Of a DNA stretch of 21,557 bases, positions 1 to 16,242 are shown in pieces. This DNA comes from an uncultured Fidelibacterota bacterium (GTDB lineage Bacteria; Marinisomatota; Marinisomatia; SCGC-AAA003-L08; GCA-002707645): NCBI GenBank assembly GCA_913020255.1, contig CAJWAW010000011.1:1-21557 (forward strand), in the 5' to 3' direction. The notes under the pieces are model-generated. The model made no database searches. It was not told the DNA's origin and saw only the letters and a program-made list of their open reading frames with translations. Numbering within the stretch: the stretch's first letter is position 1; each line of letters starts with the position of its first letter. The translations under genes were made by a program, and so were the position numbers.

Positions 1-2955
1 AATACTTGTGGATCAACTTTAGAAAATGATGAATGTGGTGTATGTGGTGGAGATGGGGTTGATGCAGATAATGATAATGTTTGCGATGATGTTGATTTAT
101 GTCCAAATGATCCAGATAATGATTTAGATAATGATGGTGTTTGTGGAGATATTGATGTTTGTCCAGGATTTGATGATAACATAGATTCTGATAGTGATGG
201 TACTGCAGATGGTTGTGATGTTTGTCCTAATGATTCAGATGATGATTTAGATAATGATGGTTTATGCGGTGATGTAGATGTATGTCCAGAAGACATTGAA
301 AATGATGCTGATAATGATGGCGTGTGTGAGAGTGATGAAATTTCAGGCTGTACAGATGAAACAGCTTTAAATTATTTGCCTGAAGCAACTGAAGATCAAG
401 GCTGTGTTTATGATTTTGAAACTCCTCCAGATGAATTTAGTTATAATGTTTCATCAAGCTTTGCTTATTACTTTATTGGATCAATAACAATTAATGGAGC
501 TGTTGTTGATTCTGAAGATTGGATAGGAGTTTTTAATGGAGATGTTTGTGTTGGTGCAAGAAGATGGAATACTCAAGATTGTTCTAATGGAATATGTGAT
601 ATCCCTGTATATGGTGATGATGGTTCTTCATTAACCTCAGGATATATGCAGGAAGGTCAAATTCCAACCTTTAAAGTTTTTGATTATTCAACTGGCAGTT
701 TTTATGATATTCTTGGTCCTGATATTAATGGTGATGGTGTTTCTGATGCTGAAATTAGTGCATGGACATTTTTAGGAACGTATGTAATAAATCAGATCTC
801 AGTAATTAAAGATTGTAATGGAGTTTTAGGTGGTAGCGTATTTGATGCTGATCAAGATGGATATTGTGATGATAATGATTATGATCCAAATGACCCACTA
901 TGTTTTGTAGATACTGACGGTGATGAAATTTGTGACCCATATGATATTTGTCCTGGGTTCGATGATAATATAGATTGTGATGGTGATTTGGAGCCAGATG
1001 GTTGTGATAATGATGATGATAATGATGGGGCTTTTGATTCATTAGATTCCGATGATTGTAACTCATTAGTATGTTCTGATAATGATGGTGATGGGTGCGA
1101 TGACTGCTCCTCAGGTCAATACAACCTTTCATTAGATGGAAGTGATTTTGATGAGGATGGTTTATGTGATTCTGGTGATAATGATGATGACAATGATGGT
1201 TCATTAGATGAGGATGATCAAAATGATAATAATTCATTTTTATGTTCTGATAATGATGGAGACACATGTGATGATTGTTCTTCAGGTTATTACAATCTAG
1301 ATGATGATGGTGATGATTATGATCAAGATTCTATCTGTGACCAAGGTGATGATGATGATGATAATGATGGTTCTTTAGATGCAGATGATAGTAATGATTT
1401 TGATGAATACTCTTGCTCTGATTCAGAAGAGTTTAGTTTTTGTGGCAATTTTTTAATTGGAGATGGCTGTGATGATTGCTCCTCTGGTACTTATAATCCA
1501 AATGATGATGGTCACGATCTTGATGGAGATGGCTTGTGTGATATTGGAGATTTTTGTGATTATGATGCTAATAATGATATAGATAATGATTGTTATTGCT
1601 TTGATGAGGAAGTTCTTGGTTGTACTGATAATACCGCTATTAACTACAATTCCAATTCTACTCAAAATGATGGTTCATGTATCTTTTATCAGCAGTATGA
1701 TTTAGACTACCATATAGGGGCTAATTTAACCAGTTATTCCCTATTAACAGAATTGAATTCTGAAAATATTTCAGTTGTTGATTTTTCAGACTTATTCACT
1801 TCAGATAATTTAACATCAATTTTAGCGGGTCAATCTGCAGCTACATTTGTAGATGGAATAGGTTGGATAGGATCATTAGGTGGTATAGATAGATATTCAG
1901 GATATTGGGTTAAGTTGAATCAAGATGATACAATTGATTATGAAGCGGTACCTTATGGTCAGGCAGTTGGTGTATTAGATGAGTTTAATAATTTAATTTC
2001 AACTGAATTTATACCTAATGAATTAAGCTATTCGCTTATTTTAGGTAATAATTTAATATCATTCCCAGGTGAGAATAATATTCAAAATTATGAATCTTCT
2101 GATGATATGGTAGTAATGTCCTATAGTTTAGAATCTGTTATTCCTGAAGAATTGAATGGTGTGATAGATGCCGTTATTGGAGAAGGTGAATTTGCATTAT
2201 ATGAAAATGATACTTGGATTGGATCATTAACTAATTTAGAAGGTTTTAAAGGGTATTGGATTAGAACAAATCAAGAAGTTGATTTGACTTTTGACTTCTC
2301 AAGTAATTCTGTATCTATGGCATCTAATGAATCAAATTATAATAAGTCATCTTTATTAGGTTATGAATATAATCAGTCATCTTATCAAGCTGGATATTTT
2401 GTGAGAGAAATTCCTCAGGCTAAAATTGGTGATTATATTGTTGCTTATCATAATAATACTGTTGTTGGTGTAAGGCAGTGGAATGGGGACGTAGTTGATA
2501 TTCCAGTGATGGGTGATGATCAAGAGGCTTATAGTCAAGACTATATAAATGAGGGTGATATCCCTATATTTAAGTTATATAGTTATGAAACTGGTACTGA
2601 GCAATTGCTATATGGCGATATCCCTAATTTTAAAAATAATGAAATTTTTGTAATGGATATATTGACTGCAGAAAATCAGTTGGTAATTCCTACTCAGATT
2701 ATGTTGCATAAAGCATATCCAAATCCATTTAATCCTGTATCGAATATTAGCTTTTCTTTGCCATCAGAAATGTTTGTTGAGCTTAATATTCTTGATATTC
2801 AAGGAAGATTGGTTAAAAATATTGCTATGGGATCATATTCTCGCGGAATGAATAACTTTATTGTAAATGGTGAAGATTTATCAAGTGGTTTATACTTTGT
2901 TCAGTTATTGGCAGGAGATGAAGTTCATTATAATAAAGTATTATTATTAAAATAA
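1..2955 (+). CDS. Large secreted repeat protein with TSP3-like repeats and C-terminal sorting domain (5' end outside window)
   Basis: The frame is open from base 1 with no start, so the N-terminus lies upstream. In order the visible part holds Asp/Asn-rich thrombospondin-type-3-like repeats with paired Cys (about nt 1-330), a 'GCTD..A.NY' module, a beta-rich domain with 'DWIGVFNGDVCVGARRW' (about nt 430-800), a second TSP3-like block with three tandem units (about 1072-1611), a second 'GCTD..A.NY' module, two related domains each with 'WIGSL' and 'GYW', a second copy of the 'GVRQWNGD' domain, and a C-terminal domain starting 'KAYPNPFNP' and ending 'HYNKVLLLK'. That last domain is of the type IX secretion/Por sorting kind, so the protein is probably exported and surface-attached or released. 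TSP3-like repeats normally bind calcium. The stop is TAA. The function is unknown; a surface adhesin or structural protein is the likeliest reading. Confidence 0.85.
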   Translation, partial: NTCGSTLENDECGVCGGDGVDADNDNVCDDVDLCPNDPDNDLDNDGVCGDIDVCPGFDDNIDSDSDGTADGCDVCPNDSDDDLDNDGLCGDVDVCPEDIENDADNDGVCESDEISGCTDETALNYLPEATEDQGCVYDFETPPDEFSYNVSSSFAYYFIGSITINGAVVDSEDWIGVFNGDVCVGARRWNTQDCSNGICDIPVYGDDGSSLTSGYMQEGQIPTFKVFDYSTGSFYDILGPDINGDGVSDAEISAWTFLGTYVINQISVIKDCNGVLGGSVFDADQDGYCDDNDYDPNDPLCFVDTDGDEICDPYDICPGFDDNIDCDGDLEPDGCDNDDDNDGAFDSLDSDDCNSLVCSDNDGDGCDDCSSGQYNLSLDGSDFDEDGLCDSGDNDDDNDGSLDEDDQNDNNSFLCSDNDGDTCDDCSSGYYNLDDDGDDYDQDSICDQGDDDDDNDGSLDADDSNDFDEYSCSDSEEFSFCGNFLIGDGCDDCSSGTYNPNDDGHDLDGDGLCDIGDFCDYDANNDIDNDCYCFDEEVLGCTDNTAINYNSNSTQNDGSCIFYQQYDLDYHIGANLTSYSLLTELNSENISVVDFSDLFTSDNLTSILAGQSAATFVDGIGWIGSLGGIDRYSGYWVKLNQDDTIDYEAVPYGQAVGVLDEFNNLISTEFIPNELSYSLILGNNLISFPGENNIQNYESSDDMVVMSYSLESVIPEELNGVIDAVIGEGEFALYENDTWIGSLTNLEGFKGYWIRTNQEVDLTFDFSSNSVSMASNESNYNKSSLLGYEYNQSSYQAGYFVREIPQAKIGDYIVAYHNNTVVGVRQWNGDVVDIPVMGDDQEAYSQDYINEGDIPIFKLYSYETGTEQLLYGDIPNFKNNEIFVMDILTAENQLVIPTQIMLHKAYPNPFNPVSNISFSLPSEMFVELNILDIQGRLVKNIAMGSYSRGMNNFIVNGEDLSSGLYFVQLLAGDEVHYNKVLLLK
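1072..1611 (+). repeat. Three tandem 57-codon TSP3-like repeat units
   Basis: Units start at 1072, 1243 and 1414, exactly 171 nt apart. Each begins with Cys-Ser-Asp and contains a CDDCSSG motif followed by an Asp/Asn-rich stretch with 'DGLCD' or a variant. The third unit carries a short insertion before its CDDCSSG motif; its end point is approximate. The repeats are coding, imperfect at DNA level, and lie inside the large secreted protein. Confidence 0.75.
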
Positions 2956-3019: not shown

Positions 3020-4963
3020 ATGTATAGTTACCTATATATTCGTTTAATACTACTATTATTTACACTGTCGGCTTTATTTGGATATGAAAATTTATATTTA
3101 ATGAAGTTTGATAATGTATCTAGAGATTCTAATATAAATTATTTAGCTGAACGTCTTCCAGAAATTATAATAGACAATTTTAATAAAGAAGATTATGTTA
3201 ATATTCTCTATGCACCTAAAATAATTCCAGTTTTATATGAAAATAATTCTAATCTTGATAATGGTATATTGCTTAATGGTAAATTTTTATCATCTTATGA
3301 TAATATAATTATTTCTTTTGAAGCCTTTGATGTGAACTCATGGGAGAAAAAAACTTTTAGATCTTACTATTGCAATATTAATGATCAGGATTGTATTGAT
3401 AATGCTTTGTTAGTTTCTATTAAAGAGAATATACTTCCCCTGTTTTGCCCATTTTATGATTGCCTAGGTGTTTGTAAAGGTAAGGCTGTAAATGATTGCT
3501 TAGGAGTTTGTAATGGTGCTTCGATTTTAGATTGTATGGGAGAATGTAATGGTTTGGCAAAAGACGATTGCAGTGGTATTTGTAATGGTTCTGCTAGTTT
3601 AGATAATTGTGGTAATTGTAATAGTGATCCTCAAAATAATTGCATACAAGATTGCAATGGAGATTGGGGTGGTGGTGCTTTTTTGAATATATGTGGTATG
3701 TGTGTAGGTGGTAATACGAATGTAGACACACTGTTTGGTATGGATTGCTTAGGTAATTGTGAAGGGGATGCAATTCAGGATTGTAATGGTGATTGCCAAG
3801 GATCAGCCTATTTAAATGAATGTAATGTATGTGTAGGAGGTAATACAAATAATAATATTAATAAAGGCCTTGATTGCGAAGGTGTTTGTTTCGGTATATC
3901 TCAAGTTGATTATTGTGGTGTTTGTAATGGAGATAATTCATCCTGTTCTGATTGTTTAGGGGTTCCATTTGGAAAAGCTACAATTGATATGTGTGGGTTT
4001 TGTGATGATGATTATACAAATGATTGTGTAAGAGATTGTAATGGTGATTTTGGCGGTACAGCTTATTTAAATGAATGCTCAGTATGTGTTGGTGGCAGTA
4101 CTAATTTAGATGCTAATACTGGGCTTGATTGTAACAATGTATGTTGGGGTGCTGCTAAATTGGATAAATGTGGTATTTGTAATGGAGAAAATCAATGCAG
4201 TAGTAATGATATTTTTAGTAAAACACAAAAAAATAAGAACATTGATTTAAATCATAATATAAAAGATGTCAAGAAGATTTATTTGCATAATACATTAAAA
4301 AATGACGCTTATCAGAAAAGTAATAAACAATCGTTTTCATTAGATATAGAAGAAAATACTAATAAATTGTTTTTAATATTAGATGATATGAAAAAATCAT
4401 TATATGATTATGAAATAAATAATATAGATAATAATATTGTTAATGATAAAATTTTATTAGATTTACCTGTAGTTTTTTCTCTAAATCAAAATTTTCTGAA
4501 AAAATTTGAAAAAATCCCACATATAAAGAAAAGAATTGATAATGGTTCAATTCTTTATAAAATAAATAAATTAGACTTTAATATTTCTCCTGAATTAGAT
4601 ATGCATTTTTCTTTGATGAAATATCAGATTGTTCCTGTAATGTTTTTTATTGATAGAAATGATAATATTGGCTCTATTATTATTAATTCATGGAATGATG
4701 GATATAGTTTTAATATTGGTACAAAATATAATGTAGATATAAAGATAATTAATCAATTTCAAACTAAAGTATCAATAATGCCAGGCAAAGATTCAGTTAG
4801 TTTTATTTTTGATACTTCTAATTTATTAAATGACTATCAAGTATATTTGAAAAATGAAGATTATAATAATTTTGATTACGTCTATATTAGCTTTTTTTAT
4901 GAGCATAGCTTAGAGTCAGATATAAAATCATATATTATTAATAGGTATAATAATGATCATTAA
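3020..4963 (+). CDS. Secreted Cys-rich protein with DCxGxC repeats and possible TolB-like N-terminal domain
   Basis: This 647-residue protein starts with a hydrophobic signal peptide (about residues 5-20). Residues 25-120 ('LYLMKFDNVSRDSNINYLAE' onward) recall the N-terminal fold of TolB/FlgO-like proteins, where a 'FDN...YLA' segment is typical; this match is weak. Residues 147-393 are a run of short Cys repeats of the form D-C-x-G-x-C-x-G, including three copies of a longer unit, 'DCNGD.GG.AYLNEC.VCVGG'. Such repeats are common in secreted proteins of Marinimicrobia and some Bacteroidota; their role is not known to me. The C-terminal 250 residues are Lys/Asn-rich without Cys and end in beta-like sequence. 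It overlaps the next gene by 11 nt, suggesting co-transcription with the TlpA-like protein. No function can be assigned. Confidence 0.8.
   Translation: MYSYLYIRLILLLFTLSALFGYENLYLMKFDNVSRDSNINYLAERLPEIIIDNFNKEDYVNILYAPKIIPVLYENNSNLDNGILLNGKFLSSYDNIIISFEAFDVNSWEKKTFRSYYCNINDQDCIDNALLVSIKENILPLFCPFYDCLGVCKGKAVNDCLGVCNGASILDCMGECNGLAKDDCSGICNGSASLDNCGNCNSDPQNNCIQDCNGDWGGGAFLNICGMCVGGNTNVDTLFGMDCLGNCEGDAIQDCNGDCQGSAYLNECNVCVGGNTNNNINKGLDCEGVCFGISQVDYCGVCNGDNSSCSDCLGVPFGKATIDMCGFCDDDYTNDCVRDCNGDFGGTAYLNECSVCVGGSTNLDANTGLDCNNVCWGAAKLDKCGICNGENQCSSNDIFSKTQKNKNIDLNHNIKDVKKIYLHNTLKNDAYQKSNKQSFSLDIEENTNKLFLILDDMKKSLYDYEINNIDNNIVNDKILLDLPVVFSLNQNFLKKFEKIPHIKKRIDNGSILYKINKLDFNISPELDMHFSLMKYQIVPVMFFIDRNDNIGSIIINSWNDGYSFNIGTKYNVDIKIINQFQTKVSIMPGKDSVSFIFDTSNLLNDYQVYLKNEDYNNFDYVYISFFYEHSLESDIKSYIINRYNNDH
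3458..4198 (+). repeat. Coding DCxGxC cysteine repeat array
   Basis: The segment encodes about fifteen short Cys motifs (DCLGVC, DCMGEC, DCSGIC and similar) plus three longer copies built on 'DCNGD.GG.AYLNEC.VCVGG'. A related short copy occurs at the N-terminus of the lipoprotein encoded from 8217. The repeats are protein-level and diverged at the DNA level. Confidence 0.7.
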
Positions 4964-5537
4964 AATTTTGATTATATTGTTTTCATTTGCTGTGGCATCA
5001 GAGGGTAGTTTGTTACCTAAGGCATTTTTAAAAGATTTAAATAATAATAAAATAGCAATTTATGACTATGTAGAACAGGGACCAATGGTTTTAAGCTTTT
5101 GGTTTTTAGCTTGTGAGCCATGTAAAAAAGAAATGGTCTACTTAGATTTATATAATGAAAAATATTCAAAGTATGGATTTAATATAGTATCAATTAATAC
5201 CGATAATTCTCGTTCGTTTAGTAGAGTAAAACCTTTTGTTAATTCTAAGAAATATTCTTTTAAAGTTTTATCTGATCCTAGATCATTGTTTTTTAGAAAA
5301 GTTGGTGGTCTTGTTTGCCCCTATACAGTAATAGTGAATGCTAATGGAGAAATTATTAATACGCATATGGGGTATAACCCTGGAGATGAAAAAGAATTAG
5401 AAAAAGAAATTGTCTCTCTTTTATTACCATCTATAGAAGCAGATACAACATTAGTGGATTCTTCTATTATTTCTATAGTTGATCAAATTAAACTAGATAA
5501 ACAATCATTACAAGATGATATCAAAAAGAATAAATAA
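4953..5537 (+). CDS. TlpA-like exported thioredoxin-fold protein (CEPC)
   Basis: This 194-residue protein has an N-terminal signal segment (about residues 2-16) followed by a redoxin domain. The active site is 'FWFLACEPCKKE', with Cys54 and Cys57, in the position expected for TlpA/ResA-type thiol-disulfide oxidoreductases. The cis-Pro segment is 'GGLVCPYTVIVNANGEI'. Both active-site residues are ordinary Cys codons, unlike the three UGA-containing paralogs downstream. It probably works outside the cytoplasmic membrane on disulfides of exported Cys-rich proteins such as the one encoded just upstream, whose 3' end it overlaps by 11 nt. The C-terminal 30 residues are charged. A weak Shine-Dalgarno (TAGGT near 4942) precedes the ATG. 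The substrate is inferred only from neighbourhood. Confidence 0.85.
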   Translation: MIIKILIILFSFAVASEGSLLPKAFLKDLNNNKIAIYDYVEQGPMVLSFWFLACEPCKKEMVYLDLYNEKYSKYGFNIVSINTDNSRSFSRVKPFVNSKKYSFKVLSDPRSLFFRKVGGLVCPYTVIVNANGEIINTHMGYNPGDEKELEKEIVSLLLPSIEADTTLVDSSIISIVDQIKLDKQSLQDDIKKNK

Positions 5538-7191
5538 TCTGAAAAATTTTTCTTTATTCATTATTCTTTTATCATTCTTATTTTCTAATGCTCAATCTAT
5601 AATTTCTTTTCAACAAAAAATTGCTCAAGGACAGGGGAATAGTAGAAATTATTTTGAAAATATTTTAGATGTTAATTATTTTTTTAATAATGGACTATAT
5701 CTTTTTACTCAATTAGAGTATAGTAATCCCCCCTTGCTAGGTCTTGAAACTAAAAAAATAAGTGATATTAATAATATATTTTATCTTCAGTATTCAAATT
5801 CAAATTATGATTTAACATTAGGAGATTTATATATTCTTCATGGCTCAGGATTATCTTTGCATACCTATTCTGATCAAGATGTAGATTATGATAATAGTAT
5901 TATGGGTATTGATTTTTCTTATAATATAAATGATAAAATTAATTTTTCATCTATGATTGGAACAGGTAATATAAAATCAAGAGTTGATATTAATGAGATA
6001 GGTCACGATGTATCTATTAAAAATGATGTAATATCTATAAAAGGTACATTAGATTTAGAAAAAGTAAGTGTGTATTATTTATCTTTTTTTCAAAATCAAA
6101 ATTATAGCAATAATGATATTGAAAGCATGGAAAGTATGCTCAATCTTTTAGGGAAATATCTTAATTCTATAATCATTGATGATACAAAGAATTATCAAAT
6201 GAAAAATATTGATCACAATATAGGAGTTCATTTTTATTTTGATTTCGCAGATATTTATATAGAACAATCAGTTGTTTTTCATGATCTGATATTTGGGGAG
6301 AGAGTTGATGGATATAGAAAATATTTATCTACGACTTTTGATTTATTTAATATTGATTTTATTTATGAGTATAAAGATTATTTTATACCTTATCTTTATA
6401 ATGTCTTTTCAGCTCCACCAATTGCATTTAGAGAATCAACATCAATATTAGCTTCACGAAATTTACATACAATTGATTTTACTAATGAGTATGGGTATCA
6501 AATTGAATTTAATAAATCTTTTAATAATGGCGCTAATTTAAGAGGAACATATGCTTATGCTTTGCACCATCAAAAAACTGAAATTAGTGGAGATTTTTAT
6601 AATGATATAGTATTAGATGATACATATCCTTATATGCAGTATTTTATTGAATTTAGTAATTGGAGTAATAATCAAAAATCATATTATCGGATTGGTTACG
6701 ATTACTATAATGAAAAACCTATAGAAAAAGGAAAGTTTATTACGGCGGAAACAATTCCAATGCAGTATGTTTATAATTTTAAAAAAGGTAATTCAATTAC
6801 TGTTTATATGGAAATACAGGAAAAAATGGAAGAACATAAATTATATAATGAAGATGAAGTTGTGATATTTGATGGCCATATTAATCATGATTATTATTAT
6901 TTAAGTCCAACATACAGTCATTATGGATTATGGACATATTCATTGTTTTTTGATCTTGAAAAAGATTATATGATTCCTATTTTAGAAGATGGCACAGGTG
7001 AGATTATTTCAATAGATAATGAAGGAGAGAACTGGTATGCTATGGATTTTACTAAAAATTTAAAAAATAGTGCTCAAATATCTATTTTTTATGGTTCTCA
7101 AAAGGGTGGTTTGATTTGTGCTAATGGCACATGTGTTCCTCAGCCTGATTTTCAAGATGGAATTAAATTAACTTTCAGAAAGAATTTTTAG
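5515..7191 (+). CDS. Outer-membrane beta-barrel-like protein (DUF6029-like)
   Basis: This 558-residue protein starts with a charged stretch and a hydrophobic signal peptide ending about 'LFSNAQS'. The rest is alternating beta-type sequence, rich in Tyr, Asn and Phe, and it ends in 'KLTFRKNF' with a terminal Phe, as usual for outer-membrane barrels. Motifs such as 'YFENILDVNYFF' and 'QLEYSNPPLLG' near the N-terminus recall the DUF6029 family of Bacteroidota outer-membrane proteins; I recognise this from memory and cannot confirm it. It overlaps the TlpA-like gene by 23 nt, so the two are probably translationally coupled. No Shine-Dalgarno is evident at the ATG. Function unknown; a porin-like or surface role is possible. 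Confidence 0.75.
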   Translation: MISKRINNLKNFSLFIILLSFLFSNAQSIISFQQKIAQGQGNSRNYFENILDVNYFFNNGLYLFTQLEYSNPPLLGLETKKISDINNIFYLQYSNSNYDLTLGDLYILHGSGLSLHTYSDQDVDYDNSIMGIDFSYNINDKINFSSMIGTGNIKSRVDINEIGHDVSIKNDVISIKGTLDLEKVSVYYLSFFQNQNYSNNDIESMESMLNLLGKYLNSIIIDDTKNYQMKNIDHNIGVHFYFDFADIYIEQSVVFHDLIFGERVDGYRKYLSTTFDLFNIDFIYEYKDYFIPYLYNVFSAPPIAFRESTSILASRNLHTIDFTNEYGYQIEFNKSFNNGANLRGTYAYALHHQKTEISGDFYNDIVLDDTYPYMQYFIEFSNWSNNQKSYYRIGYDYYNEKPIEKGKFITAETIPMQYVYNFKKGNSITVYMEIQEKMEEHKLYNEDEVVIFDGHINHDYYYLSPTYSHYGLWTYSLFFDLEKDYMIPILEDGTGEIISIDNEGENWYAMDFTKNLKNSAQISIFYGSQKGGLICANGTCVPQPDFQDGIKLTFRKNF

Positions 7192-7263: not shown

Positions 7264-8205
7264 GTGAAATTGTTTATTTTTATATTATCTTTTATAACTT
7301 CTGTTTATACTCAAACATATTGTTCTGGAGATTTTATTAGTTTAGAAGATCAAAATGCCAGCCAGGTAGTTGGTGCTGGTGCTGGTGATTATGATACTGG
7401 AGATACATTTAGGTTGGCTGATTTAAATGGAGAGCTAAATGGAGGAAATTATTCGGTTATTTTTATTGATATGGCTGCAAGTTGGTGAGGATCCTGCGTA
7501 TCATTAGCGCCATCAGTTGATGAGCTTGAACAACAGTTTTCAGAATCAAATGTTAAATTTATAACTTCCTACCAAGACCCGGGTAATAGTAATAGTGGAA
7601 GTACTAATTTATCTTCACAAGGTTGGCAAAATTTAGGAGTTGATGGTATCCCTTTAGTTATTGATCAAAATGCTAGCAGTATTAATATGTTCAGCTTATT
7701 TCACGATTCATATAATGCTTTTCCTAGCTTTGTATTAATTGATCATACTATGAAAATTCGAGCAAAGCCCTGGACTTTAACAAGTAATTCTAACACAAGT
7801 TCTTGTGATGGTTTAAGTTCTTTGATAAATGGCTGGAGTGGAGGAAATACGGAAAATTTCATACAACAGTTAGTTGATGAATGTGGTTCATTATGTGAAG
7901 GGAATCCTGATATTGATGGTGATGGAGTTGTTACCTCTAATGATAATTGTCCTAATACCCCTAATCCTAATCAAGATGATAGTGATGGTGATGGAATAGG
8001 TGATTTATGTGATGATTGTCAGGATTTAGCTGGTGATGTTAATGATGATTTTACAATTGATATTTTAGATGTTGTAACTGTTGTTAATTTTGTTCTAGGT
8101 ATAAATGTACCAAACGAATGTGAATTTTCTGATAGCGATTATAATGGAGATTTAGCTATCAATATTCAAGATATTATTATTATTATTGGATTAATTTTAA
8201 ATTAG
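7264..8205 (+). CDS. Exported thioredoxin-like selenoprotein A, Sec75 (UGA 7486-7488), TSP3-like repeat and dockerin-like C-terminus
   Basis: Read through the in-frame TGA, the product is 313 residues. From GTG 7264 it has a signal peptide (about residues 1-16), then 'NGGNYSVIFIDMAASW-U-GSC'. Sec75 takes the first Cys position of a thioredoxin CxxC, with Cys78 as partner. The fold continues with 'APSVDELEQQF', a beta strand, and the cis-Pro segment 'AFPSFVLIDHTMKIR' (Pro154). A short TSP3-like 'DGDG' stretch and a dockerin-like pair ('GDVNDDFTIDILDVVTVVNF' and a second copy) end the protein. A hairpin 27 nt after the TGA fits a bacterial SECIS. Likely a secreted thiol or selenol oxidoreductase; the substrate is unknown. 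A nonsense-mutated pseudogene is the alternative, but two sibling genes carry TGA at the same site. The stop is TAG. Confidence 0.85.
7486..7488 (+). other. In-frame UGA read as selenocysteine (Sec75 of selenoprotein A)
   Basis: The codon lies between TGG (Trp) and GGA TCC TGC, giving W-U-G-S-C. The 66 codons from here to the next ATG are open and encode the expected redoxin sequence. It is aligned with the catalytic N-terminal Cys of thioredoxins. Confidence 0.85.
7506..7526 (+). promoter_or_regulatory. SECIS-like hairpin of selenoprotein A
   Basis: An upper stem CATC (7511-7514) pairs with GATG (7519-7522) around loop AGTT. Below a small internal loop, AGC (7506-7508) pairs with GCT (7524-7526). 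The loop begins 27 nt after the UGA and has G at its second position, matching the known bacterial SECIS pattern. It is the weakest of the three hairpins. Confidence 0.55.
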
Positions 8206-8216
8206 TCATTAAATCA

Positions 8217-9068
8217 ATGAATCGTTTAATTTTTATTTGCTTTTTGATTATATCATGTGATTTAGATGAACAGATGAGTACTGATTGTAATGGCTTGAGT
8301 TTTGGATCGGCATATAGAGATGAATGTGGTAGATGTGTTGAAGGTGATACAGGGCTCGTTGCTGGAATTGATTTAGATGAATGTGGTAAATGTTTTGGTA
8401 CAGATGCTTGTTTAGATGGGCTTTGCGTAGATGAGGCTGCTATAAATTATCATTTAGAATTACCTGATAATGCTGTGGCTGATAATTCTTTATGTGTTTA
8501 TGATTTATGTGATGATTATCTTCCTTTATCTAATGCAAATTTTTCTTGTGATGATTCACAACAAACTTCAACGTATCAGGTTGGAGATCAGCTTAGATGT
8601 GAAGATATAGATGATTCTATTGATATTTGTTATCCTTCAAATTGTGGTAATTTTAAGCTATCTGATTTATACGGAAAGGTTACTTGGATTGAATTGACAA
8701 CAAGTTGGTGAAACACTTGCTACACACACGGGGTTCCCGAGTTAGATGAAATTGCTTTAAGCTATATGGATAATAAAGATGTAATGATTGTATCTGTATT
8801 ATATGATGTGAATCAACCACATTCATGTTTATCATGGGGATCAAATGGTAATAGTGATATACCCATACTTATTAATGGAGGTACTTCTTTGATGTTTGGT
8901 GGAGGCAATACTTTAGAAAGTTTATTTTTTGATGATAATCAAATACCAAAAAGAGTGTTTATTGATCATGAGTTAAGAGTACACTATAAATTTTCTGGTT
9001 ATGAATCAGAGGAGGATATTAAAGGAAAAATTAATGAAATGTTAGAAAATATGGAGATAAATCGATGA
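8217..9068 (+). CDS. Thioredoxin-like lipoprotein selenoprotein B, Sec165 (UGA 8709-8711)
   Basis: Read through TGA, the product is 283 residues. The N-terminus 'LIFICFLIISCDLDE' is a lipoprotein signal with a plausible lipobox (IISC), so the protein is probably membrane-anchored. Next comes a Cys-rich module ('DCNGLSFGSAYRDECGRC') like the repeats of the protein encoded from 3020. The redoxin domain follows: 'WIELTTSW-U-NTC' (Sec165, Cys168), then 'DVNQPHSCLSWGS' with Cys204, then cis-Pro 'NQIPKRVFIDHE' (Pro244). It has no dockerin. A GC-rich hairpin sits 22 nt after the TGA. It starts 11 nt after the previous gene and its TGA stop overlaps the next ATG (ATGA), so it is almost certainly in the same operon. 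No strong Shine-Dalgarno is seen. The real stop, 9066-9068, is also TGA but lacks an obvious downstream hairpin. Confidence 0.85.
8709..8711 (+). other. In-frame UGA read as selenocysteine (Sec165 of selenoprotein B)
   Basis: The codon follows TGG and precedes AAC ACT TGC, giving W-U-N-T-C. The next 18 codons are open and join a C-terminal redoxin half in the same frame. Confidence 0.85.
8726..8742 (+). promoter_or_regulatory. SECIS-like hairpin of selenoprotein B
   Basis: CGGG (8729-8732) pairs with CCCG (8736-8739) around loop GTT, with CA/TG pairing below one mismatch. The loop starts 22 nt after the UGA and begins with GU. The codons used here (CAC GGG GTT CCC GAG) are unusually GC-rich for this AT-rich genome, as expected if RNA structure constrains them. 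Confidence 0.7.
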
Positions 9069-10075
9069 AAAATATAGTTGTTACTGTAGTTTTATTTTAT
9101 GTGTTAAATGCTGCTAATTGGACAGTGAATTCAGGTAATTTTTATTATTCCCCTTCAACTTTAGAAATAGATGTTGGAGATAATGTAACTTGGATAAATG
9201 AAGGTGGTTTTCATGATGTTAATGGTCAAACAAATACGATATCTGGAAATTCATTTAATAATCCAGAACCATTTTATGTAGGTCCACCAACATCAGGAAG
9301 TGTCATAGGTGATTATACATTTAATATACCAGGAGTTTACTTTTATGATTGTTCTGTAGGATCTCACGCTGCAAATGGAATGGTAGGAACAATTATAGTA
9401 AATTCATTAGATGTTCAAGGCTGCACAGATTTAAATGCAATTACATGCGATGATAATGTGGATATGCTATATTTTCCTGAGTGTTCTTCATGTTCTGAGG
9501 GTGTAGCTTGTGATAATTATTATAATCCTAATGCTACAGTTGATAATGGTTCATGTATGTATAATGATGTGCCAACTGATGAAGAATTTCAAATTACGTT
9601 ATCAGATAATGGATGTGATCTTAATTGGAGTACATTTACACCACCTGTTAATGCATTGCAATATGTATTACAACGGTGTTTGGATCCTGATGGAGATACA
9701 GATGGAGATGGTGAATATGAATATGAGAATTGTACAATGGTTATTGCGCCGGGCTCAAACTTTCTAGGAGTCGATTATTATGATGAATTTGATACAACAG
9801 GTTCTTATTTTAAGTATACTTTTTATGTGCATTATCCAAATAACAATTATTGGGGGTCAGCTTTCAAATATTATTATTATGAAGGTACTTCTCAATGTGT
9901 TTCTGGGGATTTAAATGAAGATGGATTGATTAATGTTCAGGATATTATTTCTTTAGTGAATGCTATTTTGGCGCCAGGCTCTTTAGCAGATATATGTGCA
10001 GCAGATTTAAATGATGATGGAAATTTAAATGTTCAAGATATAGTTGGGCTTGTTAATTTGATTTTATCATTATAA
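9065..10075 (+). CDS. Secreted cupredoxin (type 1 copper) protein with dockerin-like C-terminus
   Basis: This 336-residue protein has a signal peptide ending near 'LNAAN'. Residues 18-113 form a plastocyanin-like domain: 'VGDNVTWINEGGFHDV' supplies His50 and 'YFYDCSVGSHAANGMVGTI' supplies Cys96, His101 and Met106, the complete set of type 1 copper ligands. A 'GCTD....NPNATVDNGSC' module follows, then a beta-rich domain with Cys, and two dockerin-like repeats ('GDLNEDGLINVQDIISLVNA' and a second copy) at the C-terminus. It is probably an extracellular or surface electron carrier or copper-binding protein. It overlaps selenoprotein B by 4 nt (ATGA), and GGAG at 9053-9056 serves as its Shine-Dalgarno. 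The dockerin-like tail is shared with selenoproteins A and C, which suggests a common location. The redox partner is unknown. Confidence 0.88.
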   Translation: MKNIVVTVVLFYVLNAANWTVNSGNFYYSPSTLEIDVGDNVTWINEGGFHDVNGQTNTISGNSFNNPEPFYVGPPTSGSVIGDYTFNIPGVYFYDCSVGSHAANGMVGTIIVNSLDVQGCTDLNAITCDDNVDMLYFPECSSCSEGVACDNYYNPNATVDNGSCMYNDVPTDEEFQITLSDNGCDLNWSTFTPPVNALQYVLQRCLDPDGDTDGDGEYEYENCTMVIAPGSNFLGVDYYDEFDTTGSYFKYTFYVHYPNNNYWGSAFKYYYYEGTSQCVSGDLNEDGLINVQDIISLVNAILAPGSLADICAADLNDDGNLNVQDIVGLVNLILSL

Positions 10076-10085
10076 AATAAATGAA

Positions 10086-10108
10086 ATTAGGTTTATATTT
10101 AAACTAAT
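10086..10108 (+). other. AT-rich hairpin between cupredoxin and small Cys-rich gene
   Basis: ATTAG plus TTTA can pair with TAAA plus CTAAT, with one bulged G and a 4-nt loop. No T-run follows, so it is not a standard terminator. It could be an mRNA processing or stability element, or chance in AT-rich DNA. Confidence 0.25.
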
Positions 10109-10136
10109 AGAATTTTAATTTGAAAGGACTTTTGAA

Positions 10137-10322
10137 ATGGATTGTAAAAATTGGAGTTGTTGGAAAGATTGTATTGAACTTGGTTTAAAGGTTGTTTTTG
10201 TTGCTGTCTTTACTTGGGGAGTGATGAGTGCAGTATGTTGCATGAAATCATGTTCAAGTAGTTCGTCTTGTTGTAAGTCTGCTTCAAGTGAGGTTGTAAA
10301 GCCTTGCAGTGCAAAAAAATAA
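10137..10322 (+). CDS. Small Cys-rich single-pass membrane protein
   Basis: This 61-residue protein opens with 'MDCKNWSCWKDC', then a hydrophobic helix (about residues 16-33, 'LGLKVVFVAVFTWGVMSAV') and a Ser/Cys tail with CC, CSSSSSCC and a final Cys. A good Shine-Dalgarno (AAAGGA, 10123-10128) precedes the ATG. Nine Cys in 61 residues suggest metal or thiol binding; I recognise no family. It sits between the cupredoxin and another Cys-rich mini-protein in the selenoprotein cluster, so a role in metal handling or as a redox substrate is possible but is only inferred from position. Confidence 0.7.
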   Translation: MDCKNWSCWKDCIELGLKVVFVAVFTWGVMSAVCCMKSCSSSSSCCKSASSEVVKPCSAKK

Positions 10323-10342
10323 ATTTTAATTAAGAGGTAATT

Positions 10343-10534
10343 ATGAAAAAAATAATAATATTGATGTCATTTCTTAGTATTTCCTTTTTTACTTTTTCAT
10401 GTTCTTCATCTTGTATGACAGCATGCTCATCTTCATGTTCTAAAACAAGTTGTAACAAAGATACTAAATCATGTGATACTAAGTGTACTAAATCTTGTTG
10501 TAGTAAGTCTGATAAAAAAGAAGAGAATGAATGA
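10343..10534 (+). CDS. Small Cys-rich lipoprotein
   Basis: This 63-residue protein has a signal peptide ending in 'FTFSC', a plausible lipobox, so the first of its Cys would be lipidated. The mature part is almost wholly Cys, Ser, Lys and Thr ('CTKSCCSKSDKKEENE' at the end), with about a dozen Cys and no hydrophobic core, which fits a metallothionein-like metal-binding tail or a thiol buffer rather than an enzyme. A Shine-Dalgarno (AAGAGGT, 10332-10338) precedes the ATG. Its TGA stop overlaps the ATG of selenoprotein C (ATGA), so the two are translationally coupled. No family is recognised. Confidence 0.7.
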   Translation: MKKIIILMSFLSISFFTFSCSSSCMTACSSSCSKTSCNKDTKSCDTKCTKSCCSKSDKKEENE

Positions 10535-11427
10535 GAGTTGTACTTTTTATATTATTTTCTTCTTTTTCTTTTGCATATGAAGTTGGTGAAATTATTAGTG
10601 TAAATCATCAAGGTCTAACGAAATCAACATGTTTTCCAGGTAATGGTTATAATGTTAATGATCCTTGGAAATTATCAGATTGGAATGGTGATTTAAATGG
10701 AGGAAATTATAATGTAATTCTTCTAGAAATGTCAGCGACATGGTGACCTGGATGTTATGATGCTCTTTCTGGTCCAGAGGGAGTGGTTCATTTTGAATTT
10801 GAAGAAAATGATCATGTGAAGTTTATTATTGGTCTATCTGATTTAAATCAACCTTATTCATGTACCCAGTGGGGAAGTGTTCCTGATGGTGGTTCTTCTC
10901 AGATTGTGCATGACACATCTAGTGGAGGTTCATTGTATAGTTTGTATGGAAATGAGGGATATATACCTAGTTTTATATGGATTAATCAAAATATGGAAGT
11001 TGTTTATAAAACAAATAGTACAAGTGCATATAATATGAAAAATCTTGTTGAAGAAATGTTACAGGATTGTGGCAAATGTTATATTGATGATACTTTTATT
11101 GATGATTATAGTTCTAATAATCAAACATACCAAGAATATTGTTGTGAAGAATTCGGTGGTTCATTTTATGAATTCTCTGATTTTGAAAATAATTACTGTG
11201 AAGGTTCTGATGCTAGTTGGATGAAATTATGCTCTGAATGTAGTAATGATTTAGGTGATATAAATGGTGATTTGATTATCAATGTTTTAGATATAATCAG
11301 TGTTGTAAATATTATATTAAATGTAAGTATCCCCGATGATTGTGAATCTAATAGTGCTGATTTTAACTCAGATGGGGTAATCAATATTCAAGATGTTATT
11401 AGTATTGTAAATGAAGTTCTTGGATAA
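10531..11427 (+). CDS. Exported thioredoxin-like selenoprotein C, Sec72 (UGA 10744-10746), dockerin-like C-terminus
   Basis: Read through TGA, the product is 298 residues: a signal peptide (to about 'SFSFA'), then 'NGGNYNVILLEMSATW-U-PGC' with Sec72 and Cys75 in the thioredoxin active-site position. 'DLNQPYSCTQWGS' follows, with Cys111 exactly 39 residues after Sec, the same distance as Cys204 in selenoprotein B, and then cis-Pro 'YIPSFIWINQN' (Pro146). A Cys-rich linker leads to two dockerin-like repeats ('GDINGDLIINVLDIISVVNI' and a second copy). The best SECIS-like hairpin of the window starts right after the UGA. It overlaps the small Cys-rich gene upstream by 4 nt and is followed by an intrinsic terminator. 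Likely a secreted thiol/selenol oxidoreductase, with substrate unknown. The pseudogene alternative is disfavoured by the parallel TGA in two paralogs. Confidence 0.88.
10744..10746 (+). other. In-frame UGA read as selenocysteine (Sec72 of selenoprotein C)
   Basis: The codon follows TGG and precedes CCT GGA TGT, giving W-U-P-G-C, close to the WCxxC active site of thioredoxin-fold proteins. The frame is open for 12 codons to the next possible start and onward to the TAA at 11425. Confidence 0.88.
10762..10784 (+). promoter_or_regulatory. SECIS-like hairpin of selenoprotein C
   Basis: A 10-bp uninterrupted stem pairs 10762-10771 with 10775-10784, using some G-T pairs, around apical loop GTC (10772-10774). 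The loop starts 26 nt after the UGA and begins with GU, matching the bacterial SECIS rule. It is the strongest of the three. Confidence 0.75.
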
Positions 11428-13570: not shown

Positions 13571-14533
13571 ATGAAAGTAGCTGTATTTGGTGCGAGTGGT
13601 TTTGTAGGTGAATATATAACTGAGGAGTTATTGAATAATAAGTTTTCTCCATACATATTATTACGATATGGAAGTGAGTCAAAAATCAAACGTTATGGTG
13701 AATGTAAAATTATTACAGGTAATATAGATAATGATACAGCCATAGAACAAACAATGATGAATACTGAAGCTGTCATTTATAATATCGGTATAATCAGAGA
13801 ATTTAAATCATCACCATCATTATCTATACTTACTCATGAGGAGATTACATTTGAAAAATTACATTTTGAAGGATTGAAGAAGTGTGTTGATCAGGCTAAA
13901 AAACTTAATATTAAACGCTTTATTTTAATGAGTGCAAATGGTGTAAAGGAAAATGGCACTAGTTACCAATCAACAAAATATAGAGCTGAGCAATATTTAA
14001 AGGATTCTGGTTTAGATTGGACTATCTTTCAACCATCTTTAATTTTTGGAAATTCTGAAGGTAAACAGGAATTTTGTAAACAATTAAAAAAAGATATGCT
14101 ATCTTTACCATTTCCAGCTCCATTATTTCACGAAGGTTTTATGCCATTTAATGCAGGATCTTTTAAAATGAGTCCTGTACATGTAACTGATGTAGCTAAA
14201 GCTTTTGTTAAATCATTAAATGAGACAAAGTCTATAGGGAAAATATTCCCTCTTGGTGGAAAGGAATTAACGTGGAAAGAAATCATTAAATTGATTTCTA
14301 TTGCATCAGATAAAGAAGATAAAATGTTTATTCCTGCTCCAGTTTTACCAATAAAGATGGTTGCTACTATTCTAGATAGATTCCCATGGTTTCCTATTGC
14401 TAAAGATCAATTGACAATGCTTCTTGAAGGTAATACTTGTGATGGTTCTCAAGCATTTGAATTATTTAACATTAAAAATCCAATTGAATTTAATTTAGAT
14501 TCATTAAGTTATTTATCTGATGAACATAATTAA
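13571..14533 (+). CDS. NAD(P)-binding SDR-family protein, NDUFA9-like
   Basis: This 320-residue protein starts with a Rossmann motif 'VAVFGASGFVGEYI' (GxxGxxG, residues 7-13). 'RFILMSANGVKENGTSYQST' and 'KYRAEQYLKDSGLDWTIFQP' follow, where the usual YxxxK is replaced by a Ser-Thr-Lys-Tyr context, as in atypical SDRs of the complex I NDUFA9 subgroup. 'MSPVHVTDVAKAF' is another typical segment. Such proteins bind NAD(P)H and act in quinone or lipid metabolism or as structural subunits; the reaction here is unknown. A strong Shine-Dalgarno (AAAGGAG, 13559-13565) supports the ATG. It heads an overlapping run with three downstream genes. Confidence 0.8.
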   Translation: MKVAVFGASGFVGEYITEELLNNKFSPYILLRYGSESKIKRYGECKIITGNIDNDTAIEQTMMNTEAVIYNIGIIREFKSSPSLSILTHEEITFEKLHFEGLKKCVDQAKKLNIKRFILMSANGVKENGTSYQSTKYRAEQYLKDSGLDWTIFQPSLIFGNSEGKQEFCKQLKKDMLSLPFPAPLFHEGFMPFNAGSFKMSPVHVTDVAKAFVKSLNETKSIGKIFPLGGKELTWKEIIKLISIASDKEDKMFIPAPVLPIKMVATILDRFPWFPIAKDQLTMLLEGNTCDGSQAFELFNIKNPIEFNLDSLSYLSDEHN

Positions 14534-15047
14534 TAAAAATATAGTTATAAATGTTATTGGTTTTTATATCTGTTGGTGGCTTACAGTTCTTGGCGCTATA
14601 TCTGGATTTTATTTTATTGGCCCTTTAGTGACATTCTTTTTTGTTGTTTTACATTTGTATAAAGTAGCAAATCATAAAAAAGAAGATATGTTTTTAATTA
14701 TCTGCTTTTTATTAGGATTAATAATTGAAAGTATTTTACTTAATTCTAATGTTATTATTCATAAAGGATTTTTAGTAGAATATAATATTGCTCCCTTATG
14801 GTCTGTTTCGTTATGGGTTTGTTTTGGGAGCACGCTATTTCATAGCTTTAAATGGTTAAGCAAACAATATTTCATAAGCATATTATTAGGATTTTTTTCA
14901 GCACCACTAATTTATTTTTCTATGAATTCTATAGGTATAATAGAATTTGGTATGAATAAAATTTATGTTGGTCTTATAACTTCATTTTTATGGGCTGTTT
15001 TTATACCTTTATTTATTTACATATCTGATAGGTTATTAGAAGAATGA
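14520..15047 (+). CDS. DUF2878-like integral membrane protein
   Basis: This 175-residue protein is almost entirely hydrophobic with about five membrane helices. The pattern 'FYICWWLTVLGAISGFYFIGP' near the N-terminus, 'GLIIES' and the 'VSLWVCFGSTLFHS' stretch fit the DUF2878 family as I remember it. That family has no established function and in other bacteria often lies beside SDR and fatty-acid-modifying genes. It overlaps the SDR gene by 14 nt and the next gene by 4 nt (ATGA), so it is surely co-transcribed. Confidence 0.75.
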   Translation: MNIINKNIVINVIGFYICWWLTVLGAISGFYFIGPLVTFFFVVLHLYKVANHKKEDMFLIICFLLGLIIESILLNSNVIIHKGFLVEYNIAPLWSVSLWVCFGSTLFHSFKWLSKQYFISILLGFFSAPLIYFSMNSIGIIEFGMNKIYVGLITSFLWAVFIPLFIYISDRLLEE

Positions 15048-15664
15048 AATTATTTTTAGTTTTTTTTATATCCTTGTTATCTGCAGGAAGTATTCACCTA
15101 TTATCTGATTTTTATAATAATGATAAATGGCAACTAAAGGATACATCTATTGATAATATACAAATATTAGAAACATATGATGCTGATTATAGTGATAAGT
15201 TTATTAGAATAGAGGGATCTGTGGACAACAGGGATTCTATATTAAATACTATAGAGTCAATTTCTGATTATAATAATATTGTATCAAATAAAAACATTTC
15301 TTCAGATTTTTTATTTTCTAATGGTGATACTTTATTTTGTTATCAAAGAATAAGTAATTCTATCCCTTTTATAAGAGATAGGCAGTATATATTTAAGATG
15401 TATCGTGTTGATAATAGTCGAATTGATTGGTATTTAGTAAATGAAAATCATGCTGCATTGCAACCATATCTAAAAGATGATGTTAGAACTTTAACGTATG
15501 GTGCAGGATCATGGAAGTTCTCAGATGATGAAAAAATATTAATTTATAGAATGTATATGGATGAGGAAGTAAATTTACCATTATCTTTTATTCAAAAATT
15601 AAGAATTAATTATGCTTTGAATATATTTAATGATGTAATTAATTGGTCAAAAGGAGACAAATGA
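15044..15664 (+). CDS. START-like (SRPBCC) lipid-binding protein, membrane-anchored or exported
   Basis: This 206-residue protein begins with a hydrophobic segment (about residues 3-17), acting as signal or anchor. The rest resembles a START/SRPBCC domain: 'IRDRQYIFKMYRVDNSRIDW' strands, 'TYGAGSWKF' and a long C-terminal amphipathic helix ('PLSFIQKLRINYALNIFNDV'). Such domains bind lipids or other hydrophobic ligands. The match is by pattern, without a diagnostic catalytic motif. Its stop TGA overlaps the GPx ATG, and it sits between a DUF2878-like membrane protein and a peroxidase, which suggests a role in membrane lipid maintenance. Confidence 0.65.
   Translation: MKLFLVFFISLLSAGSIHLLSDFYNNDKWQLKDTSIDNIQILETYDADYSDKFIRIEGSVDNRDSILNTIESISDYNNIVSNKNISSDFLFSNGDTLFCYQRISNSIPFIRDRQYIFKMYRVDNSRIDWYLVNENHAALQPYLKDDVRTLTYGAGSWKFSDDEKILIYRMYMDEEVNLPLSFIQKLRINYALNIFNDVINWSKGDK
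15651..15656 (+). promoter_or_regulatory. Ribosome binding site fixing the glutathione peroxidase start
   Basis: AAGGAG lies 4 nt before the ATG at 15661, so that ATG is preferred over an in-frame start at 15643 that would overlap the upstream gene further and add a charged stretch before the signal peptide. Confidence 0.75.
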
Positions 15665-16242
15665 AATATTTATTATTTATATTAATTTTTATAATTTTTT
15701 CATCAATTGGATTTTCTTTTTTCAATAAAGATGAAATCAATTTAGATAATTATTCTGAAAATATATATGATTATTCAATTAATCTTATTAATGGCAATAC
15801 TGTTGATTTAAAATCTTATAAAGGAAAAAAAATAATTTTAGTTAATGTTGCATCTAAGTGTGGATATACTCCTCAATATGATGGTTTGCAAAAATTATAT
15901 GAAAAGTATAATCAAAAGCTAGAGGTTGTAGGTGTACCTGCTAATGATTTTTTGTGGCAGGAGCCCGGTAAAAACAAAGATATTCAAACATTTTGTAAAG
16001 TTAATTATGGTGTTACATTTCCAATTGTAGAAAAGTCTATTGTAAAAAAAACTAAGGGTCAACATCCTTTGTTTACTTGGTTGACTCATGAAGATTTAAA
16101 TGGATGGAATGATGCTGCTCCAGGATGGAATTTTTATAAATATTTAATTGATGAAAATGGAAAACTAATACGTGTTTTATCTTCCAAAGTAAAGCCCTTT
16201 GATGAGCAAATTATTAATTTTATTGAAAATGAAACTGAATAA
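15661..16242 (+). CDS. Glutathione peroxidase family protein (Cys form), exported
   Basis: This 193-residue protein has a hydrophobic N-terminal segment (about residues 3-20) absent from cytoplasmic GPx, so it is probably periplasmic or membrane-anchored. The peroxidatic motif is 'VNVASKCGYTPQY' with Cys67 (TGT at 15859-15861). The rest of the tetrad is Gln100 in 'WQEPG' and Trp156-Asn157 in 'PGWNFYKYLI'. Cys112 in 'FCKVNYGVTFP' is also conserved in the family. Such enzymes reduce hydrogen peroxide or lipid hydroperoxides, in bacteria usually with thioredoxin as donor. The active residue is Cys although this genome appears to use selenocysteine nearby, so it serves as an internal contrast. 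It overlaps the next gene by 14 nt. Confidence 0.9.
   Translation: MKYLLFILIFIIFSSIGFSFFNKDEINLDNYSENIYDYSINLINGNTVDLKSYKGKKIILVNVASKCGYTPQYDGLQKLYEKYNQKLEVVGVPANDFLWQEPGKNKDIQTFCKVNYGVTFPIVEKSIVKKTKGQHPLFTWLTHEDLNGWNDAAPGWNFYKYLIDENGKLIRVLSSKVKPFDEQIINFIENETE

Follow-up and report, generated by a model that had tools for sequence, protein, structure and literature searches.

We analysed a 21,557-nucleotide stretch of contig CAJWAW010000011.1, from an uncultured Fidelibacterota bacterium; this whole stretch is referred to as the window. It contains a cluster of three redoxin genes, here called A, B and C, each with one in-frame TGA. Comparative evidence makes it near certain that the three TGAs are selenocysteine (Sec, U) codons. 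All three products would be exported selenoproteins that have a thioredoxin fold with UxxC at the active site. Our preferred explanation is that they belong to an exported redox module and carry out thiol-disulfide exchange, with electrons supplied by DsbD and TlpA. We place the probability of this explanation as a whole at about 0.62. That Sec is inserted in the source organism seems to us hardly in doubt.

All three genes lie on the forward strand. Gene A (7264..8205) begins with GTG and encodes an exported, ResA/TlpA-like redoxin whose C-terminal region has TSP3 and dockerin parts. Its TGA (7486-7488, codon 75) falls in the motif W-U-GSC, or AASWUGSC when extended. Gene B (8217..9068) encodes a redoxin with a Cys-rich N-terminal part and, by eye, a lipoprotein-like signal; the TGA (8709-8711, codon 165) lies in W-U-NTC (TTSWUNTC). 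Gene C (10531..11427) encodes an exported redoxin with a C-terminal dockerin, and its TGA (10744-10746, codon 72) lies in W-U-PGC (SATWUPGC). Each open reading frame has a single internal TGA, which takes the exact place of the first Cys in the redox CxxC. This agrees with a prediction made earlier from the window's sequence (the original prediction), which also placed a cis-Pro beyond the motif. The Pro is invariant in our redoxin domain alignment.

To follow the reading frame past each TGA, we used four genomes with the same gene order (G163-G166, the syntenic relatives). Gene A was 51-65% identical to its relatives before the TGA and 64-70% after it. Values for gene B were 44-55% and 54-60%, and for gene C 57-63% and 49-56%. 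Since identity is similar on both sides, the DNA downstream of each TGA is still coding, and the redoxin sequence is intact past the codon as originally claimed. TGA was present at all three sites in 4/4 syntenic relatives, which makes assembly error unlikely. Pseudogenes or assembly errors have nothing in their favour beyond the stop codons themselves. They would have to explain why one codon recurs in all three paralogs and across the four syntenic genomes, why the protein past the TGA is conserved, and why the hairpins described below exist; we give them next to no credence. The genetic code is not simply reassigned, because TGA is also a normal terminal stop in the window (G+C content 28.5%). 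It ends 4 of the 19 window genes checked, namely gene B and the genes at 10343-10534, 14520-15047 and 15044-15664.

The original prediction called for a search for sel genes, which we made in the genomes of relatives. SelA (E 2.4e-110 or better), tRNA-Sec over cut-off and SelD over cut-off with one TGA inside were found in 4/4 syntenic relatives. SelB was over cut-off in three and in pieces in the fourth (G165). We then considered 245 genomes of the phylum (Neomarinimicrobiota), among which tRNA-Sec was over cut-off in 153 and SelA in 175. A redoxin profile search gave matches, many of them weak, in 212/245. By hand tally among the matches listed, at least 57/245 genomes have a TGA inside a match, and in 51 of these 57 SelA reaches E 2.4e-110 or better. 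SelB was over cut-off in 23 of 27 chosen genomes and SelD in 21, and each of the 21 SelD genes contained one TGA. Sec-containing SelD is an established selenoprotein, as entered in Table 1 of PMC13188914. Hence, the TGA within SelD is separate evidence that this lineage reads UGA as Sec. The selA and selB genes adjoin each other in G159:C68 and G163:C43, among others. SAR406 single-cell genomes stand under 'orphan SelD' in Table 1 of PMC5029168; given SelA over cut-off in 175 of the 245 genomes here, incomplete genomes may explain that entry. In the window itself, an Rfam search gave a single tRNA over threshold and nothing else.

The codon at the Sec site was read at the DNA level in 97 distinct redoxin domains from Neomarinimicrobiota loci. 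It was TGA in 82, TGT in 11 and TGC in 4, with no other codon. These loci were picked mostly from rows with TGA, so the 82:15 ratio of TGA to Cys is no census, and the weight lies on the absence of other codons. At the second active-site Cys, the codon was TGT in 63 of 84 domains, TGC in 18 and TGA in 3. Stops within the profile matches were TGA only, never TAA or TAG, among the matches listed (E down to ~3e-15); these rows were tallied by hand, and the position of the TGA was verified in fetched loci only.

Public protein predictions give another picture. A protein search returned 69 gene A homologs and 16 gene C homologs. In 50 and 8 of these, respectively, the alignment starts past the site. 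The 19 gene A homologs that cover it print Trp (17), Cys (1) or Arg (1), and the eight for gene C print Trp (6) or Cys (2), with no Arg. Taken at face value, 17/19 and 6/8 would have UGA read as tryptophan (code 4 or 25) in ordinary W-W-x-x-C proteins. This reading has almost no chance of being right: TGG occupies the site in 0/97 distinct domains, TGA terminates 4/19 window genes, and SelA, tRNA-Sec and UGA-containing SelD occur in relatives. The printed Trp is most likely an artefact of gene calling with code 4, because no Trp codon appears in the 97 domains. The public predictions seen therefore miss the proteins, either starting past the UGA or printing another residue, mostly Trp. Hence, a UGA redoxin family in at least 57/245 genomes is hard to see in annotation. 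One public homolog (P0010) has Arg at the Sec position (SASWRGPC), which could be a one-base change or an error.

Homologs with Cys in place of Sec, also sought by the original prediction, were found. They include probable orthologs, 780-821 aa from stop to stop, with Sec in five genomes (L132-L136) and Cys in another five (L137-L141); the Sec and Cys kinds share 35-52% identity. An in-frame UGA where homologs have Cys is a criterion for bacterial selenoproteins, and this is the pattern observed. A contig scan gave six further loci, from five Neomarinimicrobiota metagenome-assembled genomes (MAGs) and one Cyclobacteriaceae MAG. These are Cys forms by construction because the scan pattern forced Cys. 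No relative was found in a scan of viral contigs. In a quick tree of 97 rows (no mixture model, and with a long-branch warning), at least six changes between Sec and Cys were placed, four of them forced by starred branches. Every window gene clusters with its counterparts in the four syntenic genomes, and the three clades that hold A, B and C lie far apart; therefore, the copies are old.

We next looked for bacterial Sec insertion sequence (SECIS) elements, again following the original prediction. The accessible text of PMC13188914 describes a hairpin with G in the first two loop bases and the loop 16-37 nt past the UGA, with an energy limit of -7.5 kcal/mol or lower. Our scorer is a simplified energy model built on this geometry, which is present in all three window genes. 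The gene A hairpin (7501..7523, forward strand, as are the others) has a loop that begins with G 20 nt past the TGA (-5.4 kcal/mol; synonymous-shuffle p 0.13). In gene B (8726..8742), the loop GUU begins at 21 nt (-4.1 kcal/mol; p 0.10). In gene C (10762..10784), the loop GUC begins at 25 nt (-11.0 kcal/mol; p 0.08). RNAfold gave -9.2, -6.2 and -13.3 for the 52 nt past the UGA in A, B and C, and none beat shuffles at z -1.

Across the family, such hairpins are enriched. The hairpin sets comprise UGA rows with enough clean downstream sequence (62/67 and 75/82). The best SECIS-like energy had a median of -5.9 in 62 UGA genes versus -0.55 in 17 Cys rows, some of which belong to other thioredoxin families (DsbD C-domain, TlpA); the Mann-Whitney p was 1e-7. 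Mean same-gene percentiles were 0.14 for UGA genes and 0.52 for Cys rows. Synonymous shuffles gave p<=0.1 for 43/75 UGA genes versus 1/15 Cys genes. Because the rows are related, these p-values are too small. In a fixed register (+22, 3-nt loop), 23/75 UGA redoxins had perfect 5-bp pairing, and all 23 had G in the first two loop bases. Their stems varied (CATCG/CGATG, CATTG/CAATG, GATAA/TTATC and AATAA/TTATT, for example). Among the 15 Cys rows, the best register held 4 and lay elsewhere (+32, 4-nt loop). UGA genes of the Omp28 type, described below, paired at +19 in 20/20 fetched cases.

What the selenoproteins do was assessed from domains, predicted structures and gene neighbourhood. Gene A scored over cut-off with PF00578 (26.2; cut-off 26) and PF00085 (28.2; cut-off 23.5). 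Gene B was under the Redoxin (PF08534) cut-off, and the sole domain match of gene C was a dockerin (E 0.01). Predicted models of A and C were ResA/TlpA-like thioredoxin folds (mean pLDDT 79.8 and 73.8). ResA, DsbE and other thiol-disulfide oxidoreductases top both fold-comparison lists, with 12-19% identity in the top ten rows. The features that mark ResA/TlpA proteins, a thioredoxin fold (here predicted), (C/U)xxC and, close to the active site, a conserved Pro, are all present. Most members also have a second Cys pair (alignment columns 40 and 177). Both of these Cys are missing from gene A and the four genes that correspond to it, and sister rows L025-L027 lack only the first. The pair may thus form a disulfide with a structural or resolving part.

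The same enzymes could instead be exported selenoproteins that act against oxidants as thiol peroxidases or repair enzymes, rather than as disulfide exchangers. AhpC/TSA and Redoxin profiles match gene A, and Redoxin matches gene B (some of these below cut-off). Peroxiredoxin Q stands at ranks 4 and 15-18 of the gene A fold list. A glutathione-peroxidase gene (15643-16242) lies downstream of the cluster and recurs in L056-L058, L062, L063 and L065. We nevertheless regard this alternative as unlikely. Thiol-disulfide oxidoreductases head both fold lists, and the most constant neighbours of the UGA genes are TlpA and DUF6029. Furthermore, A, B and C have UxxC followed by a later conserved Pro and lack the PxxxTxxU pattern given for Sec-peroxiredoxins in the accessible text of PMC13188914.

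The neighbours define a recurrent module. The original prediction was correct in its coordinates and in the cupredoxin and Cys-rich mini-proteins interleaved with the redoxins; the conserved neighbourhood begins further upstream than the cluster it drew, at 3020. The first module gene (3020..4963, +), here and in the syntenic loci L055-L058, encodes a Cys-repeat protein with 40 Cys in 647 aa, the N-terminal part of which recurs upstream of TlpA in other loci. It is followed by two conserved members, a TlpA/ResA-like thiol-disulfide oxidoreductase with an ordinary CEPC (4953..5537, +) and a DUF6029 (PF19494) protein, a putative outer-membrane barrel (5515..7191, +). In G163-G166 the order is Cys-repeat protein, TlpA, DUF6029, A, B, cupredoxin, mini-protein and C. 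The flank reaches the glutathione-peroxidase gene in L056, L057 and L058; L055 ends sooner. Elsewhere in the phylum the module comprises a Cys-rich protein, TlpA and DUF6029, then UGA redoxins and/or UGA Omp28 proteins. We mapped 61 loci, picked for holding UGA genes. DUF6029 lies beside the UGA genes in 33 of them (window included), 31 of which also have TlpA (hand count). Other loci start or end at contig ends (L061-L063, for example) or hold a stand-alone NATWUPAC type.

The preferred explanation can be set out as follows. SelB and tRNA-Sec would read the TGAs, aided by the hairpins just downstream. The Sec redoxins would be the outer partners of an envelope module made up of the Cys-rich protein, TlpA, DUF6029 and Sec redoxins and/or Sec-Omp28 proteins. 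Their likeliest job would be thiol-disulfide exchange on exported Cys-rich proteins, in which disulfides, or another oxidised partner, would be reduced, shuffled or repaired. In the simplest chain, electrons would pass from DsbD to TlpA, then to the Sec redoxin and on to a Cys-rich exported client. DsbD_TM was found in 26/27 chosen genomes. Many homologs carry type IX secretion system (T9SS) sorting tails; dockerin tails occur in the window. A large Cys-rich protein with a T9SS sorting tail (window 1-2955, cut by the window start; 43 Cys in 984 aa) is a possible client. An exported redox function in general is very probable. The direction of electron flow and the role of Cys-rich proteins as clients have, by our estimate, even odds.

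Handling of copper or another soft metal would give the neighbours a different meaning. Sec redoxins would then reduce metal sites or chaperones, and the cupredoxin and Cys-rich mini-proteins would be carriers. The cupredoxin (9065..10075, +), between B and C, has an intact C-x4-H-x4-M motif and a C-terminal dockerin. It is in the same place in L055, L056 and L058, and occurs in L062 and L063; L057 (G165) has no match to its N-terminal part. Two mini-proteins also lie inside the cluster. Mini1 (10137..10322, +) has 9 Cys in 61 aa and is conserved in L055-L058, L062 and L063. The second (10343..10534, +), lipoprotein-like with a signal assigned by eye, has 9 Cys in 63 aa and is conserved in L055-L058. 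Hence, among L055-L058, L062 and L063, mini1 is in 6/6 and a cupredoxin match in 5/6. However, neither cupredoxin nor mini1 matches were found in L059, L060, L064, L065, L067-L074 or L100-L108, most of which retain TlpA and DUF6029. We consider metal handling improbable, slightly more so than a peroxidase role.

Several observations weigh against Sec-dependent thiol-disulfide exchange as set out above. The sel genes are known from relatives' genomes and not from that of the source organism. Six of the 57 genomes with TGA matches are without a good SelA. Two of these (G173 and G121) have tRNA-Sec over cut-off, and in three (G169, G170 and G175) SelD passes the cut-off and contains one TGA; the sixth (G138) has no over-cut-off match for SelA or tRNA-Sec, with SelB and SelD outside the search. 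Singly, the window hairpins are not significant on synonymous shuffles (combined p 0.03), and that of gene B falls short of the energy limit in the literature. Metal handling is one possible reading of the cupredoxin and the Cys-rich mini-proteins. In PMC9603273, DUF6029 is taken to be a putative barrel that may act in polysaccharide secretion or export; the barrel of the module would then have another role. Finally, the clients, electron flow and location proposed for thiol-disulfide exchange are putative.

We compared the cluster with known systems. The nearest named family is the Omp28-related selenoprotein NF045500 (entered in Table 1 of PMC13188914 as 'hypothetical protein GOS_C'), which has a UxxC motif together with Omp28 and dockerin-type parts. 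Its genes share the TlpA-DUF6029 neighbourhood elsewhere in the phylum, also in several copies and beside UGA redoxins. For instance, G122 (L100) has four copies in one cluster with TlpA, DUF6029 and then a UGA redoxin. Some genomes have many such genes; G141 has five Omp28-type TGA rows plus a UGA redoxin. The window genes miss the NF045500 cut-off of 200: gene A scored 62.9 bits (model 270-377 only), gene C 16.5 (307-376), and B was not listed. Genes A and C align through the C-terminal dockerin end only. The active sites also differ, being mostly TG-x-x-U-P-Y-C-P in NF045500 and A-(S/T)-W-U-x-x-C in the redoxins. NF045500 was over cut-off in 24/245 genomes. Among the matches listed, most rows had one TGA and four (G136, G152 and G151) had no internal stop. 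Our Omp28 loci were chosen from rows with TGA, and the four stop-free rows were left out as Cys controls.

Other relatives are more distant. Redoxin (PF08534) and Prx-like (PF00578) UxxC selenoproteins (PMC13188914, Table 1) share the broad fold and motif; gene B is under the Redoxin cut-off and gene C has just its dockerin match, and the distinction rests on description, not on example sequences. ResA, TlpA and DsbE have Cys first in the motif, whereas the present family has Sec, a dockerin tail and, in most members, an extra Cys pair. The SAO and Tso operons likewise have several selenoprotein genes per cluster. As described in the accessible text of PMC13188914, those are specialised-pathway sets of several selenoproteins, in contrast to one repeated redoxin family here. 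From GOS data, Prx-like U/CxxC proteins that carry additional domains were reported, as was a fusion of a deiodinase-like selenoprotein with an EF-hand domain; the part of PMC9402790 consulted has no dockerin-tagged redoxin cluster, a comparison by description rather than sequence.

A related cluster occurs in Bacteroidota. TlpA is near DUF6029 in 8/12 fetched loci (one on the other strand), and no TlpA was found in the short flanks of the other four (L121, L123, L125 and L126). Omp28 is additionally present in L122 and on both sides in L131, where the one Omp28 active site read has Cys (CGNCP). DUF6029 was found in 20/118 of a sample from the order of the Cyclobacteriaceae MAG, and was absent from the one Bacteroidota genome of the contig scan. 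Sec is linked to a TlpA-DUF6029-Omp28 module of unassigned function that is shared with Bacteroidota, a natural comparison for why Sec replaces Cys.

UxxC thioredoxin-like selenoproteins are known as a broad kind. As far as our literature searches reach, there is no description of the tandem dockerin-tagged redoxin family, of how it is spread through the phylum, or of the module. Titles and abstracts, with most subscription journals outside the search, held no description of this system for Marinimicrobia/SAR406, Omp28, type IX secretion, dockerin or DUF6029 selenoproteins. Neither dockerin nor Marinimicrobia appears in the available text of the selenoprotein review PMC13188914. Nor is the system described in the accessible parts of PMC8938466, on sel transcription in sediments, of PMC8318568, on a Marinimicrobia bin, or of PMC9727886, where just a cited title bears on the subject. 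The original prediction that this is not a described system stands for the literature and family libraries searched, with the qualification that the close family NF045500 is already named and occurs in the same kind of cluster in other genomes of the phylum.

A more speculative and rather doubtful extension is that a Sec redox relay spans the outer membrane. In it, DsbD and TlpA would feed the DUF6029 barrel and, through it, surface selenoproteins (redoxins and the Omp28 type) that keep a Cys-rich surface reduced or remodelled. If true, an ocean phylum would spend much of its selenium outside the cytoplasm. The family points to a lineage in which selenium use goes with exported proteins.

Three further features were noted. 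Motif variants with two TGAs (UxxU) occur in L088, L089 and L092 (G157, G158 and G181; TUDGUAG, TUAGUAG and WUDIUYY), and WUUPC in L093; these are possible double selenoproteins. A separate stand-alone redoxin type with TGA (mostly NATWUPACY) was seen in L085, L086, L090 and L109-L114, with no TlpA or DUF6029 match in the fetched stretch. Lastly, L062 (G003:C2) contains tandem cupredoxin-mini1 units at 32-1069 and 3831-4868 with the same match statistics, a recent duplication or an assembly artefact.

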